Assembly (NCBI GenBank): GCA_001189275.1
Contig: CP012158.1
Location: 1,417,704-1,481,703, forward strand
Length of the DNA stretch: 64,000 nt
DNA from: Pyrobaculum sp. WP30
GTDB lineage: Archaea; Thermoproteota; Thermoprotei; Thermoproteales; Thermoproteaceae
Direction: 5' to 3'
Both the position numbers and the translations under genes were made by a program. This document shows, piece by piece, positions 50,865-56,844 of this stretch. The notes under the pieces are model-generated. The model ran no database searches. It saw only the letters and a program-made list of their open reading frames with translations, and had not been told where the DNA came from. How positions within the stretch are numbered: position 1 is the first letter of the stretch; each line of letters starts with the position of its first letter.

Positions 50865-51656
50865 GTGTCAATTGTGCCGCAGGAGGTTTTGCTCGCCCTG
50901 GAGCAGATTAGGACCCACCTACGCGACTTAGGCGCCGATATAGAGCCGCAATCTCTACGTAGCGCCGTGCGCCACTACGCAGAGACGCCTGGAAAGCTCC
51001 TCAGGCCTCTGCTTCTCTTAACCTTTTCCTACAGCATAGACAGGAGGTCTTTAATCGACCCCAAGATCCTCCAGGCGGCGACCATAGTGGAGCTACTACA
51101 CATTGTGTCCCTCCTACAAGACGACGTCATGGATAAACACGACGAAAGAAGGGGCATCAAGACGCCGCGGGCGTTATACGGCGATGGGAGGTCTATACTG
51201 GCAAGCGACTGGCTCATCGCGGAGTCTATAAAACGCGCCGTACGGCTGGGGCCTGAAATCGTGGAGTATCTAGCCGACGTGGCCCAACGGCTTTCTGTGG
51301 GCCAGGCCTTGGACCTAGACGGCGAACAGGTGCGCGCCGCTGAGTTCAAAACCGCGCCTCTCATCGAGGCCTCCCTGGTGTTGCCAACTCTGTTGTTGGG
51401 GAGAAGAGACATAATAGAGGCCGCGAAGAAGCTGGGACGCTCGCTCGGCGTCTTATACCAGTATTCAGACGACTTCAGCGACGAGAAGGTAGAGAGAGGC
51501 GACGTAACCGCCGTGGTGACGGAGATAAAAAGCCTACTCGGAAGGCTGAGAAACACGCTGGGAGAAACCTTCGCGCCGTTTGAAAAACTCGTCAAGACCC
51601 TCGTCGAGAAGGCGCTGGAGGGTAGCTTAACCGTGGCGCGAAGCTTTATAACTTAA
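50865..51656 (+). CDS. Polyprenyl diphosphate synthase
   Basis: The 263-residue protein, starting at GTG 50865, belongs to the trans-prenyltransferase family. KLLRPLLLLTFSY leads to the first Asp-rich motif LLQDDVMD (86-90), and the second is YSDDFSDE. Between them, SVGQALDLDGE is conserved. It is shorter than GGPP synthases (about 300-330), lacking part of the C-terminal helices. In archaea it would supply geranylgeranyl or longer chains for ether lipids or quinones. Product length cannot be set from sequence. Confidence 0.85.
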   Translation: MSIVPQEVLLALEQIRTHLRDLGADIEPQSLRSAVRHYAETPGKLLRPLLLLTFSYSIDRRSLIDPKILQAATIVELLHIVSLLQDDVMDKHDERRGIKTPRALYGDGRSILASDWLIAESIKRAVRLGPEIVEYLADVAQRLSVGQALDLDGEQVRAAEFKTAPLIEASLVLPTLLLGRRDIIEAAKKLGRSLGVLYQYSDDFSDEKVERGDVTAVVTEIKSLLGRLRNTLGETFAPFEKLVKTLVEKALEGSLTVARSFIT

Positions 51657-51666
51657 ACGCGGACTA

Positions 51667-51775
51667 GACACGTGATGAGGCTGAAGTTTAGGGAGAGCCG
51701 TGTCTCACGGTTTGCTAGTTTATAACTACGGGAACACAGCTCGGAGACGTCAGAGGAATTTTACATATTCCCCTC
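51667..51775 (+). repeat. PaREP2-flanking direct repeat, left copy
   Basis: This ~109-bp stretch aligns without gaps to 56054-56162 at roughly 80% identity by eye, with most differences being transitions. The core includes CGTGTCTCACGGTTTGCT, identical in both. CCGTG-TCT-CACGG inside it forms a small hairpin. The right edge includes the stop codon of the PaREP2 gene. Confidence 0.85.
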
Positions 51776-54700
51776 TAGCCACTTCTCTATGGCGTCTGCA
51801 AGCTCGGCGAAGCGCCTAAAGCCTTCTAGATGCTCCCTGCCGCATACGATCTCTATGGTGCCGTCGCTCCTCTGGTACACCTTAGGCTCTCTCCCTGTAA
51901 GGGCCTTCACAAGCGCCGAGAACCTCTCGGCGTCTGCCTCCCTGCCCCCCGGCGCGTCGGCCTTGGCGTAAGCGCGTCCCACAGCCGCCTTGTCTCTGCC
52001 GAGCCTGCTGTAGGTAATTGTGTAGTCGCGCCTTACGCCGTCCACCTCCGCCGTTATCTTAATCCTCAGGAGGAGTTCGCCGCTCCTGCCCTCATCGAAC
52101 TCGGCCCCGCCGCCTACTACCTTCACCTCATGCTCCCTGCCATCTACCTCGACCTTCTTCTCAAAGCCCTCCAGCGTTAGGGAGCCCCTTGCCCTCCCCT
52201 CGTCTATGATCTCTTCGGCTTTTTCGTAAACCTCCCCGCCCTCCTCCTTTGCCCTCTGGAGTATGTACTCCACGAACTCAGCCGCAAGCCTCTGCCGCTC
52301 CCCCTCGCCGCGAACGGAGAGCCACGCGGCGTGGGCCAAGCCCTCCCTACGGATATACACATAGCCGTCGCGTCCCCCCTCCGGCATCTTCACCGTGAAA
52401 TGCTTGCCCACCTCAAGACCCATCTGCCTAAGTCTCTGCATCTCCCACTCTATGTTGCCGGAGTTGGTGGAGTTGAATCTGACCACCAGCGCGCCCTCCA
52501 CCAGCCTCACGAGATACTCAGGCCATCCCTCCTTCAACACGCGGCCTCTTTCCAGTTTCTCCAGCCAGCCCTCAGCCTTATTAGCGTCCATCCAACCCCT
52601 CGCGATGGCCTCCCTAACGACCTCGGCGAGGGTGTTTCTTAGCTCCTTGCGCCCAGCCGCAAGCTTGTCGGTGGTGGCTATGACGTACCAGACGTCTCTA
52701 CCGCCCTCCTTTTTCACCTCTGCGCTGACGCCTGCCAGTCTCAGAAGACGCGCCGCGAGCTCGGCGCGGCTCCGGTCCGATGAGACGAATTGGAGCACGA
52801 CCGCGTCATGCAGATATATGTTGTACTTGACGGCAACGCCGGCCTCCGAAATGGTTAGGTCGGCGGCGACGCGTCCGCGGTCGGTCAGCCTTATGCTACT
52901 CTTGTCAAGCTGCACCTCCACTCTGGCCTCCTTCACGAATTCGTTGAACTTGGGGCTTAAGTATTCTCCGCCCGCTGACGGCGCAGAGACGGCGAGTAGG
53001 CGCATAAGCTTTACCGTGTTCTCGCCGGTTGCGGTTATGCGGTATATACCCCTCTTCACGTATATCCGCGCGTTGAACTTCAGCTCGTCTGGCAGGAGCT
53101 GGTTGAGCATATGTAATGTGGCTAGGCGCAGTAGCGCGGCGCCTCCGCCCAGCTCCCCACCGACGACCAGCTCGACCAGCCTACGCCACACCGTGCCGTC
53201 CCCCGCTACTGCTGTTGCATACATCTTGCCGAAGTTGAGCAACGCCTCCTCTCTGTCGAACTTTTTGTTCAGCGCCTTGTCCAGCATGATTAACTCCAGA
53301 GCTGGGGCGACGAACTTCCTAACCACCGCATCCCTAGCGCAGTCCCTAGCCAGGCAGTACATATCGCTGAGGACGAAGTCGACGACGCCCCAAACCTCCT
53401 CCCTAGAGACGCCGACCTTTTCAGCTAGGCTTTCGATGAGCCCCATTGCCTTTTTCTTATACTCCTCGGCGTAGCGGATGATCACCCAGGCCAGACTATC
53501 TGCATAGTTGCCGGCTATCCTCCCGCCGCTCAACACCTCCACGGCTCTGGCCAGCCTCTTGGCCCTCTCCTCGCGCCATTTGTCGTCGTCTATACCCCTC
53601 CTCGCCTCGGCGAGGTGTGCTAGGAGCGCCAGCTCGCCCAGCGCCCTCCTCGCCAGTCCCTCCCTCTCCGCGTCGTCCCACTTCTCGGGGCCAATCCAAG
53701 GCTTCAACTCGTCGGCCAGCCTCTCAACCCTCTCTAGGACCCAGCGCCAGTCTATGGCGCCTACCAGCTCCCGCCAGCTTTCTACGCGCCGGCCCAACAA
53801 CTGCTCAAGCCATCTGCTATTCTTCAGAATCTGATCCTCCCTCTCGCGTGGCCAGTACGCGGTGACAACGGGCTTGATGCTCTCCTTAGTGACGTTAGCC
53901 CTACCGCGGAACGACTTCGGTCCGCCGAGGAGGCTGAAGTACCACCTCAACTGCCAAGGATGGGCGGTGGCGGCCTCTATCCGCCCCTCGGAGGTCGACA
54001 CGTCTGTGGCGCGCCACGCCACATACTGCGGCGCCTTGTCAAGCCCCAAGAGGTCCGGCGCCGTTCTCTTCGCCTCCTCCACGAAGCGCCTCAGCTCCTC
54101 CTCGCCAGCCTTAGAGCGGGCCACCTCTTCTATCTTCAACACATCGACGGGGGTCTCCACGCCGCCGTATGTCCTAAACACCTCGAAGCCCTCCCCAACG
54201 CGTCTAAACACGAGGTCCTCATTGACGGCTCTGCCCAGGAAGTAGCGCAGAAGCGCAGAGGCGGCCCTATCCTCCCAGCTGGGCTTACCCACAGACCTTC
54301 CGCGCCGGCCTGAGTAAGACGGATCCACAGTTTCGCCGCGTGCGTTAGCGATCCTATCGGCCTTCTCGTAGGCGCCCTTCGGCGTCAACAACACAACATC
54401 CGCCAAAGCGCCCTCCCCCACAAGCAACATGGCAACGTGGCCGTATATCCCGCCTCTCGCCACTGAGAGAAAGGCGGCGTAGGCCTTAGTCCCCATGTTG
54501 GCGTCGGAGTAGTTGCCCAACTCGTTGCGCCTCACCTCCGCCAGCTCCTCAGCCTTCTTTACGTCCACCTCCAGGTGGGGTCTGAGCCTTTCGTATAGGT
54601 CGCGGCTGTGCGACGCGTACAGCGCCAACACGCTGTTCAGCTCCCTCCTCGCCTCCTCAGCCACCTCCTCCCGCCTCCTATGCGCCCCGCGGAGCCTCTT

Positions 54701-55468
54701 CACCTCCTCGACCTTTACGGTGAATTCACGCTCCTTAACCAGACCCCTCGCCCAGTGGTACACCTCAGCCCACTCTCTATAAGCTCCGGCGTTTTTCACA
54801 AGTGTCTTATACAAAACAAGCACCGCAACCACTGCGGCGTCTTGCACCACCTCGTCCCTACTAGCAAGCGCCTTCCTCAACTCCACGAGGGGCTTGGGCA
54901 GGTTCGGCGACTTGGCCAGCTTCAGATACGGCCTCTCTCCATTCAGAGGGGCGTTGATGACCTCGTTAACGACGTTTTCGTCCACCCTCCACCTCTCATG
55001 CCTCTCAGCCAGCGTCTTAAACCTCTCAGCCGTCTTCTCGCCCACATCAGCCAGCCCAGCCACAAACGGCGCAGAAGCGGCATACGCCAGCTTCTCCAGC
55101 TCCACAAGACCCCACAGGTTCAACGCAACCGACAGCGCAACCACCCCAGCCGCCATCAAGAAGAGATATGCTTTGTGCTCATCCGCCCAAGCCAGCACCC
55201 TCGTGACGGCTTCAACAAACAGCTCAACTAGGCGCTGTGCCGTAACCTTCACCTGCTCAAATACTTCTTTAGCCGCCTCGTACAGCGCCTTCGCCGCCTT
55301 CTGCACGTACTGCACCGCCTCTCTGAACTGCCCAACCTCGGCGAGGGCGACGGCAGAGGCGATGGAGGAAACCACGGCCTCTGAATACAGCCCGTGATAC
55401 GCAGAATACAACGCCGTGGCGGAAAGCCCGGCTGAGGCGGCTTCTCTATGTCTACGCCACACCCCCAT
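51761..55468 (-). CDS. PaREP2-type repeat protein, about 1235 aa
   Basis: The long frame (open to TTG 55486; ATG 55468 preferred) matches the PaREP2 family of large repetitive-element proteins first noted in P. aerophilum. Three features stand out. There is an N-terminal Ala-rich helical region, one hydrophobic helix (YLFLMAAGVVALSVALNLWG, about residues 105-130), and a middle part with GTKAYAAFLSVARGGIYGHV and HPWQLRWYFSLLGGPKSFRG. The C-terminal third repeats a helix-strand unit (RLLRLAGVSAEVKKEGGRD, RRDYTITYSR). No transposase or nuclease triad is evident. Unlike many family members described as frameshifted, this copy is intact. Function unknown. Confidence 0.8.
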   Translation of the reverse strand: MGVWRRHREAASAGLSATALYSAYHGLYSEAVVSSIASAVALAEVGQFREAVQYVQKAAKALYEAAKEVFEQVKVTAQRLVELFVEAVTRVLAWADEHKAYLFLMAAGVVALSVALNLWGLVELEKLAYAASAPFVAGLADVGEKTAERFKTLAERHERWRVDENVVNEVINAPLNGERPYLKLAKSPNLPKPLVELRKALASRDEVVQDAAVVAVLVLYKTLVKNAGAYREWAEVYHWARGLVKEREFTVKVEEVKRLRGAHRRREEVAEEARRELNSVLALYASHSRDLYERLRPHLEVDVKKAEELAEVRRNELGNYSDANMGTKAYAAFLSVARGGIYGHVAMLLVGEGALADVVLLTPKGAYEKADRIANARGETVDPSYSGRRGRSVGKPSWEDRAASALLRYFLGRAVNEDLVFRRVGEGFEVFRTYGGVETPVDVLKIEEVARSKAGEEELRRFVEEAKRTAPDLLGLDKAPQYVAWRATDVSTSEGRIEAATAHPWQLRWYFSLLGGPKSFRGRANVTKESIKPVVTAYWPREREDQILKNSRWLEQLLGRRVESWRELVGAIDWRWVLERVERLADELKPWIGPEKWDDAEREGLARRALGELALLAHLAEARRGIDDDKWREERAKRLARAVEVLSGGRIAGNYADSLAWVIIRYAEEYKKKAMGLIESLAEKVGVSREEVWGVVDFVLSDMYCLARDCARDAVVRKFVAPALELIMLDKALNKKFDREEALLNFGKMYATAVAGDGTVWRRLVELVVGGELGGGAALLRLATLHMLNQLLPDELKFNARIYVKRGIYRITATGENTVKLMRLLAVSAPSAGGEYLSPKFNEFVKEARVEVQLDKSSIRLTDRGRVAADLTISEAGVAVKYNIYLHDAVVLQFVSSDRSRAELAARLLRLAGVSAEVKKEGGRDVWYVIATTDKLAAGRKELRNTLAEVVREAIARGWMDANKAEGWLEKLERGRVLKEGWPEYLVRLVEGALVVRFNSTNSGNIEWEMQRLRQMGLEVGKHFTVKMPEGGRDGYVYIRREGLAHAAWLSVRGEGERQRLAAEFVEYILQRAKEEGGEVYEKAEEIIDEGRARGSLTLEGFEKKVEVDGREHEVKVVGGGAEFDEGRSGELLLRIKITAEVDGVRRDYTITYSRLGRDKAAVGRAYAKADAPGGREADAERFSALVKALTGREPKVYQRSDGTIEIVCGREHLEGFRRFAELADAIEKWLEGNM

Positions 55469-55519
55469 GCGCCGGTTTAAAAACAACTATACGCAAAAGA
55501 AAACAGCTGAGGAGAGACG

Positions 55520-55951
55520 ATGGAGAGGCTTAGGGAGCCGCCTAAGCCTCCGCCTAACCCGGCGGAGGAGTTGTTGAGGGGGTGGCCGGAGCTACAAGCA
55601 TTCGGCGTTGATTGGGTGAAGAAATGGCTTGACCTTAGGGAGAGGTTAATCAAGATCGCCAAGGTGTTGAGGAGGTTTCCGTGGATGGTGGAGGTGATAA
55701 AGCAGAGGCCGATGGGCATCCTCCACCCGTATACAGTGGAGGTGTATGTGGCGAGAGACGGGTCTGAGGCGTGCCTCTCTCTAAACCCGCCTAAGGCGTA
55801 TTGTGTTCAAAACGGAGCCGTGAAGGAGGTCAAGCTGGATCTAGAGTTCAGCAGATATGAAGTGTATGAGGAGAAGATAAGAGAGGTGTACAGACCCAAG
55901 GGGCTATTGGCGTTTACCACGGCGGCCAGGGAATATGTGAGAATGCTCTAA
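55520..55951 (+). CDS. PaREP2-associated protein (PaREP2a-like), 143 aa
   Basis: This gene is divergent from the large PaREP2 gene, separated by about 50 bases. The protein starts MERLREPPKPPPNPAEELLR, has WPELQAFGVDWVKKWLDLRERL and IKIAKVLRRFPWMVEVIKQR, then a beta-rich half (YTVEVYVARDGSEACLSLNP). GAGGAG lies 8 bases before the ATG, a possible ribosome-binding site, unusual in a region of mostly leaderless genes. I assign it to the PaREP2a family from its position and composition; this is less certain than the large partner. Confidence 0.6.
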   Translation: MERLREPPKPPPNPAEELLRGWPELQAFGVDWVKKWLDLRERLIKIAKVLRRFPWMVEVIKQRPMGILHPYTVEVYVARDGSEACLSLNPPKAYCVQNGAVKEVKLDLEFSRYEVYEEKIREVYRPKGLLAFTTAAREYVRML

Positions 55952-56316
55952 CCGCTTTTTGGCGCCTTAAACTGCTTAACCATATCGAGAAGTTTTATTA
56001 TAACCTAACAAATATATTAAATATGATGAAGCTAGACTAAGCCGATTCATGACGTCGCGTGAAAGGGCTGAAGCTTGGGGAGGGTCGTGTCTCACGGTTT
56101 GCTGGTTTATAGCTACGGGGGTGCAGCTCGGAGAGGCCGGAGGGATTTTACATATTCTCCCGCCGCTGTGGCGCAAGTTTCTAGCATAGGGCCGTTACTA
56201 TATCCATACTTCTACCCCCTCCATGAATCTTTTCGAGGGGGGTGTGTACATGTTTGCGGCAGAGGTCGCCTGTTGGTGGGATGACCTTTACTGTGTAATA
56301 TTATATTGTAGATGAA
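55952..56316. other. AT-rich gap holding the right PaREP2 repeat; no gene seen
   Basis: From 55952 to 56050 the sequence is AT-rich (TTTTATTATAACC, AATATATTAAATATG). It then gives way to the right-hand direct repeat (56054-56162). Frames from 56075 to 56284 read only repeat DNA and unnatural sequence. A TAATATTATATTG tract at 56296-56308 is the likely promoter of the THEP1 gene. Confidence 0.6.
56054..56162 (+). repeat. PaREP2-flanking direct repeat, right copy
   Basis: Direct-orientation partner of 51667-51775, 4,387 bases away. It includes a sequence like the tail of the PaREP2 frame (AATATGTAAAAT on the minus strand), but the bases beyond do not resemble PaREP2 coding sequence. It therefore copies the element's 3' end only. 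Confidence 0.85.
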
Positions 56317-56844
56317 GTGGGCGTCATGGAGTTTAGGAGTGAAGTAAGGCTTGGTGTTTCCGGGATGCCGGGCGTAGGGAAGACCACACTGGCGCTTAAA
56401 GTCGTCGAGGCGGCTAAGACGCGTCTCGCAGTTTGTGGGTTTGTCACCGTGGAGGTGCGGGAGGGGGGCGCACGTATAGGCTTTGATGTCGTTGATATAA
56501 ACAGCGGCGAAAAGACGCCCCTTGCCCGCGCTGGGGTCGGAGAGCCGTCTGTGGGGAGATACGTGGTGAACCTCGGCTCCTGCGGGTTCATAGTCGGCAT
56601 CCTGCGCCGTGTGCGGTGCGACTTGTTAATCGTCGATGAAATAGGCGCCATGGAGTTCAAGTGCCCAGGCTTCGGCGAAGCTCTTGCTTCTGCCGTACAG
56701 AACTCGCCAAGAGTTCTAGCGACAGTACATAGAAACTACATAGACACGGCAAGAAGACTGGGGCTTGAAGTCATTTGGATGACTAGAGAAAACTGGGGGT
56801 CGGTCTACGCCGAGGTGTTAAGACGGCTGGGGATTTCCCAATAA
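56317..56844 (+). CDS. Nucleoside-triphosphatase THEP1
   Basis: The 175-residue P-loop enzyme has Walker [16 protein letters not shown] (about residues 16-30), [20 protein letters not shown] and Walker [13 protein letters not shown]. This is the DUF265/THEP1 family that hydrolyses ATP, GTP and other NTPs. [13 protein letters not shown] occupies the family's GxYxV segment. The ATG at 56317 could be replaced by ATG 56326 ([13 protein letters not shown]). The 3' end overlaps the convergent GTPase gene by 27 bases. Confidence 0.92.

Follow-up and report, generated by a model that had tools for sequence, protein, structure and literature searches.

Restriction-modification (R-M) gene complexes, which encode nucleases, are described as inserting with long and variable target duplications (Nobusato et al. 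2000; PMC1643837, PMC3031569), and the transposed genes of Arabidopsis are flanked by direct repeats, largely of genic sequence, that can be matched to the empty site at the orthologous locus (PMC2869330). In archaea, the PaRep2b family of Pyrobaculum has been called a family of putative transposons (PMC3558965); we found no report in the open-licence literature of PaREP2 ends, of a mechanism, of its partner gene, of target duplications or of empty sites.

We have analysed a stretch of 64,000 nucleotides from Pyrobaculum sp. WP30 (hereafter the window), which carries an intact PaREP2 gene and a divergent partner gene. As judged from comparison of its copies with one another and with empty sites, this gene pair appears to be a mobile element that generates variable, often long target duplications. 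The resemblance to R-M complexes lies in a long, variable duplication that shows up when a related genome with the empty site is compared: at four loci and in the window the repeated sequence is single copy at the relative's empty site, and its length differs from locus to locus. Unlike R-M complexes, PaREP2 is a multicopy archaeal family with a near-constant end, it comes without restriction or methylase genes, and its nuclease activity is a prediction. The Arabidopsis genes are ordinary genes that moved once each, whereas PaREP2 is one module that moved many times and has a recurrent end. Ordinary transposases leave short, fixed duplications, whereas PaREP2 insertions have variable and often long ones, and the terminal inverted repeats with short fixed duplication that mark insertion sequences of the DDE type are not found in the PaREP2 element.

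The PaREP2 repeats are abundant in Pyrobaculum; now that ends, target duplications and empty sites can be given for them, their movement is directly testable. Long-target-duplication insertion, as described for bacterial R-M genes, would be extended to an archaeal element with many copies. The element also suggests how such elements may settle in gene-dense genomes with genes and small RNAs unharmed.

The Window Module

The two divergent open reading frames noticed when the DNA was read from sequence alone are present and intact. PaREP2 (PaRep2b) is encoded on the minus strand at 51761..55486 and measures 1241 aa when counted from a TTG start and 1235 aa when an in-frame ATG is taken as the start, while the 143-aa partner is encoded on the plus strand at 55520..55951. 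The window protein belongs by Pfam to the same family as the PaREP2/PaRep2b proteins of Pyrobaculum: its C-terminal 539 aa match PF07775 with E = 1.6e-11 (43.9 bits vs a cut-off of 20.4), and the full-length protein as Pfam query gave no match. Intact PaREP2 copies are under purifying selection, with dN/dS of 0.37-0.44 between the window gene and two other intact copies of its own class and of 0.30-0.46 among six intact copies.

Domain searches of the module proteins found no reverse transcriptase or transposase domain, neither PaREP2 nor its partner carries a restriction-modification domain, and searches of PHROGs and PADLOC returned nothing convincing. An Rfam search of the region gave one chance-level H/ACA match inside PaREP2 and nothing in the repeat described below. 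Among solved structures, a sequence search with PaREP2 found nothing, a search with its C-terminal profile gave one chance-level match (E 0.72), and the partner matched coiled coils at chance level only. The partner may have an assisting or regulatory role.

Target Duplication and Empty Site

The module is flanked on the left by a polyprenyl (GGPP-type) synthase gene (50865..51656, plus strand; PF00348, E 1.9e-33) and on the right by an NTPase gene (56317..56844, plus strand; PF03266). These two genes are direct neighbours without PaREP2 in all ten congeners, which provides the empty site that the earlier reading had asked for; the interpretation as an element thus withstands the check that would have counted against it had no relative shown such a site. 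The synthase-NTPase gap measures about 60 nt in nine of the ten, and a C/D-box sRNA of the form GTGATGA...CCGA...ATGACGT...CTGA lies between the two genes; Rfam matched no family to this sRNA at the four congener loci searched.

In the window, an inserted element of about 4.2 kb (51774..55973), running from the PaREP2 3' end on the left to a point about 22 nt beyond the partner's stop codon on the right, separates two copies of the target. The left copy (51625..51773, plus strand) consists of the synthase gene's true 3' end, a collapsed C/D-box sRNA and the left member of the direct repeat; the right copy (55974..56160, plus strand) consists of a duplicated synthase gene tail, which opens at 55974 with GCTTAACCATATCGAGAAGTTTTAT, an intact C/D-box sRNA and the right member of the repeat. 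The intact sRNA (56022..56072, plus strand), which is kept in all ten congeners, has its C box at 56023-56029 (ATGATGA), D' at 56042-56045 (CCGA), C' at 56049-56055 (ATGACGT) and D at 56068-56071 (CTGA), whereas its remnant in the left copy (51672..51686, plus strand) has lost its inner part by deletion between two GGCT words. With a synthase tail on the right and the synthase's own 3' end on the left, host sequence is therefore duplicated on both sides, and about 190 bp of target, comprising the gene tail, the C/D-box sRNA and the DNA after it, surround the insertion in duplicate.

No other direct-repeat family in the region is as long as the one that drew attention to this locus (51671-51773 / 56058-56160; 103 bp, 83% identical, ungapped, with a spacing of 4387 bp); it forms the better-preserved part of the more extended target duplication. 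Over the 109 bp originally delimited, we recover the reported 80% identity, with 22 mismatches of which 18 are transitions; the PaREP2 stop codon does lie inside the left copy, and the repeats do bracket the inserted module. On the right copy, gapped homology extends another 84 bp in the 5' direction, an extension matched by 0 of 500 shuffles, so that the full extents are 51625-51773 and 55974-56160. Within the duplicated stretch the final 88 bp (56073-56160), and beyond it the 156 bp that reach from the right target copy to the NTPase gene (56161..56316), occur in no congener; they must either have pre-existed or have arrived with the insertion, and we infer the pre-insertion state of the 88-bp part, absent as it is from all relatives.

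The bracketing, and the position of the PaREP2 stop codon within the left repeat, had suggested terminal repeats belonging to the element itself, or, for the right repeat, a leftover tail from a second PaREP2 copy that has been lost. Both versions are almost certainly wrong. By BLAST, the repeat has exactly two copies in the 1.99-Mb genome (1,993,257 bp; second copy E = 5e-24) and is absent from all 40 relatives searched; it thus fails as a boundary common to other copies, and a check of other PaREP2 copies failed to find it marking both of their ends. Missing from every other copy and genome, it is made instead of host sequence with a conserved sRNA. The family-wide 3' end of PaREP2 (...TCTCCTCTAGCCAC, preceded by CACCGGCCCG) is absent from the right repeat, which cannot then be read as a PaREP2 tail. 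The repeat is duplicated target, because the right copy starts in homology to the synthase gene's 3' end and contains the sRNA of the empty site.

Two smaller features of the locus may be recorded here. A 24-nt pair of 79% complementarity (51749-51772 / 55929-55952) was considered as terminal inverted repeats and dropped, since its left arm lies mostly inside the host repeat. At the start of the NTPase gene, a 29-bp stretch (56305-56333) is 83% identical to 56629-56657, 324 bp downstream in the Walker-B region of the same gene, and is possibly templated filler beside the insertion.

Element Ends

Genome-wide searches gave 26 PaREP2 and 30 partner matches, mostly as divergent pairs; partner relatives in the genome number about 20, most of them beside PaREP2 copies. 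When about 20 copies are aligned, homology on the left repeatedly stops at window position 51769, just inside the left repeat. Other copies show a short motif, roughly CTCACCGGCCCG, before TCTCCTCTAGCCAC, and their PaREP2 proteins end in ...ETGR or ...KTRR; in the window copy the repeat takes the place of these last bases, and the protein ends in ...GNM. On the right, the element sequence of the window copy runs on for about 22 nt after the stop codon of the partner and ends directly behind CTTAAACTG, and in another class of copies the common sequence runs to about 200 nt beyond that stop. The true ends of the element lie inside the repeats: the left one, at the 3' terminus of PaREP2, is near-constant, and the right one is ragged, its distance from the partner stop codon ranging from 20 to about 200 nt. 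On inspection, the left and right ends are unrelated to each other. Both are kept in a 1.6-kb copy at L066 that has been shortened by internal deletion.

Insertions at Other Sites

The left flank was compared with the right flank for every pair of PaREP2 and partner, with 15 flank pairs tested. Five of these score 115, 64, 55, 54 and 39, whereas the highest of 273 mismatched pairs scores 35; among 3000 random same-locus pairs, some of which contain elements, 0.3% reach 39. A softer alignment scoring gave high off-diagonal scores and was left out of the significance estimate. The remaining ten of the 15 pairs show no significant repeat. Where flanking repeats occur, they differ between copies, each being unrelated to the others.

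As empty-site reference we used the closest relative (G008), an incomplete draft with 82-96% protein identity at most compared loci. Four further copies from the same genome correspond to uninterrupted sequence in this relative, where their flank alignments overlap by 34-62 bp: 42 bp at the end of an acetyltransferase-like gene (L066b), 52 bp at the start of a KH-domain-like gene (L067), 34 bp at the end of a Sir2-like gene (L076), these three names coming from reading the sequence, and 62 bp at the end of a 187-aa gene (L069). The duplicated sequence of all four loci is single copy in the relative; in each pair the gene remains complete in one of the copies, and in several cases the second copy has decayed. 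The module has inserted repeatedly at unrelated sites, and since other copies have their own, different long target duplications, the gene pair is probably mobile by an unusual mode. What was first read from the sequence therefore stands as regards the intact module, its mobility, the empty sites and the bracketing, and falls as regards the boundary role of the repeat and the tail of a lost copy.

Six further copies compared with relatives (L065, L070, L071, L072, L073 and L074) give a more varied picture. The flanks of L071 and L074 meet at the empty site with overlaps of 2 bp and 0 bp, so that duplication is either not obligatory or has been lost, and L070 and L072 show no overlap at the empty site. 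L073 has a 23-bp overlap, with some 800 bp of additional DNA to its left (G000:C1:1574674-1575484), including a 108-bp, 98% identical inverted copy of a gene segment whose source (1568911-1569018) lies on the element's other side; the right junction of L074 contains a 30-bp PaREP2 snippet. Junction filler is typical of break repair. Duplication is frequent and not universal, and its length varies, with 34, 42, 52, 62 and about 190 bp alongside the cases of 0-2 bp.

Spread Beyond This Genome

In the genome of one relative (G007), one PaREP2 copy is flanked by a 50-bp repeat of 90% identity, and six other copies have no convincing flanking repeat. Eleven loci in Thermoproteus sp. CP80 carry close PaREP2 relatives; one copy there has a perfect 28-bp flanking repeat (28/28) and another has a 35-bp repeat beside its left end. 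Caldivirga sp. MU80 has a PaREP2 fragment on one contig, and the viral contigs searched contained no PaREP2 relatives. The loci of these two genomes (L141-L152) belong to this PaREP2 subfamily and in many cases include the partner, which most sampled Pyrobaculum species lack; with the subfamily multicopy in another genus, horizontal spread is likely.

A Predicted LAGLIDADG-Like Domain in PaREP2

There is moderate evidence, from structure prediction and profile comparison, that the C-terminus of PaREP2 resembles LAGLIDADG endonucleases. An AlphaFold model of this part (pLDDT 82.6, pTM 0.54, built on 11 sequences) places a candidate half-domain at 52985..53254 on the minus strand, with the order helix-strand-strand-helix-strand-strand-helix and a conserved GDG at residues 762-764; this is the element order of a LAGLIDADG half-domain, and in the model the first helix ends in GDG, where LAGLIDADG endonucleases have an acidic residue. 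Foldseek matches in the PDB are almost all LAGLIDADG proteins, with a best E of 1.1e-3 and TM-scores that are low because the multi-domain arrangement differs. By hhalign, alignment to a LAGLIDADG_3 profile built from relatives gave a probability of 80% (E 1.4e-5), against 0.3% for a control in which the partner profile was compared with LAGLIDADG_3; a shallower C-terminal alignment matched weakly, and only to a later repeat unit. The Pfam model LAGLIDADG_3 (PF14528) stayed below its cut-off, with a match to a Thermoproteus relative only (E 0.0076, 16.9 vs 22.5 bits). A second AlphaFold model, of a 229-aa fragment, was poor (pLDDT 55) and was not used.

In its predicted fold PaREP2 may be like the homing endonucleases PI-PfuI, I-OnuI and I-DmoI, with the acidic GDG in one half-domain; a recognisable acidic motif is seen in one half-domain only. 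PaREP2 is a predicted and likely nuclease. Homing LAGLIDADG enzymes bring about precise allelic insertion through homology-directed repair, without target duplication, whereas PaREP2 sites are unrelated to one another.

Mechanism and Alternative Explanations

Taken as a whole, the data are probably best explained by a mobile element that inserts a copy of itself at widely staggered PaREP2 nicks, followed by fill-in. PaREP2, through its LAGLIDADG-like domain, would nick the two target strands tens to about 200 bp apart, and the element would be copied into the resulting long-overhang break. Fill-in of the overhangs would then yield a duplication of variable length. Of the two target copies, the one in which a host gene or RNA stays complete is preserved, and the redundant one decays. 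Whether this amounts to a new class of archaeal element, with two genes and a LAGLIDADG-derived large protein that makes widely spaced nicks at varied sites, so that up to about 190 bp of target are duplicated with each new copy, is a more tentative proposal, to which we give rather less than an even chance. If true, insertion near gene ends can leave both neighbour genes intact.

The main rival is passive capture, in which unrelated chromosome breaks were patched with PaREP2 DNA and PaREP2 encodes no mobility function. The variable length of the duplications, the ragged right ends, the junction filler and the existence of insertions without duplication would all fit, and the transposed plant genes show such a pattern without a transposase (PMC2869330). 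We nevertheless regard it as unlikely, since the same module has been inserted many times with a near-constant left end in several genomes, including those of another genus, and purifying selection maintains the intact copies. For the equivalent Arabidopsis pattern, insertion of a circle by homologous recombination has been proposed (PMC2869330), with the repeats either already tandem at the target or brought from a donor site; every target sequence we examined is single copy in the closest relative, and no donor site carries the window repeat, as it occurs nowhere else in the genome. This explanation is largely contradicted and highly improbable here. Retroelement-like or DDE-type transposition is very unlikely as well: a ragged end opposite a constant one, together with duplications of variable length, does recall LINE-type insertion, but we found no reverse transcriptase or transposase domain, short copies keep both ends and have internal deletions in place of one-sided truncation, and enzymes of the DDE type give short, fixed duplications. 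The preferred reading remains insertion of a mobile element at staggered PaREP2 nicks.

Variant Copies

Three copies depart from the usual arrangement. At L064 (G000:C1:804541-804696), a PaREP2 copy lies directly against part of a different partner gene; the arrangement resembles an element that has landed in a second one, and it would provide a clean left end. At L068 (G000:C1:862944-866448), a 1043-aa open reading frame with a partner fragment beside it matches the window PaREP2 over its first ~154 aa only, which suggests that the remainder of the protein was exchanged. L079 (G000:C1:179101-179276) is a 176-bp miniature made up only of short pieces of both element ends, and is possibly a non-autonomous derivative or a decay product.
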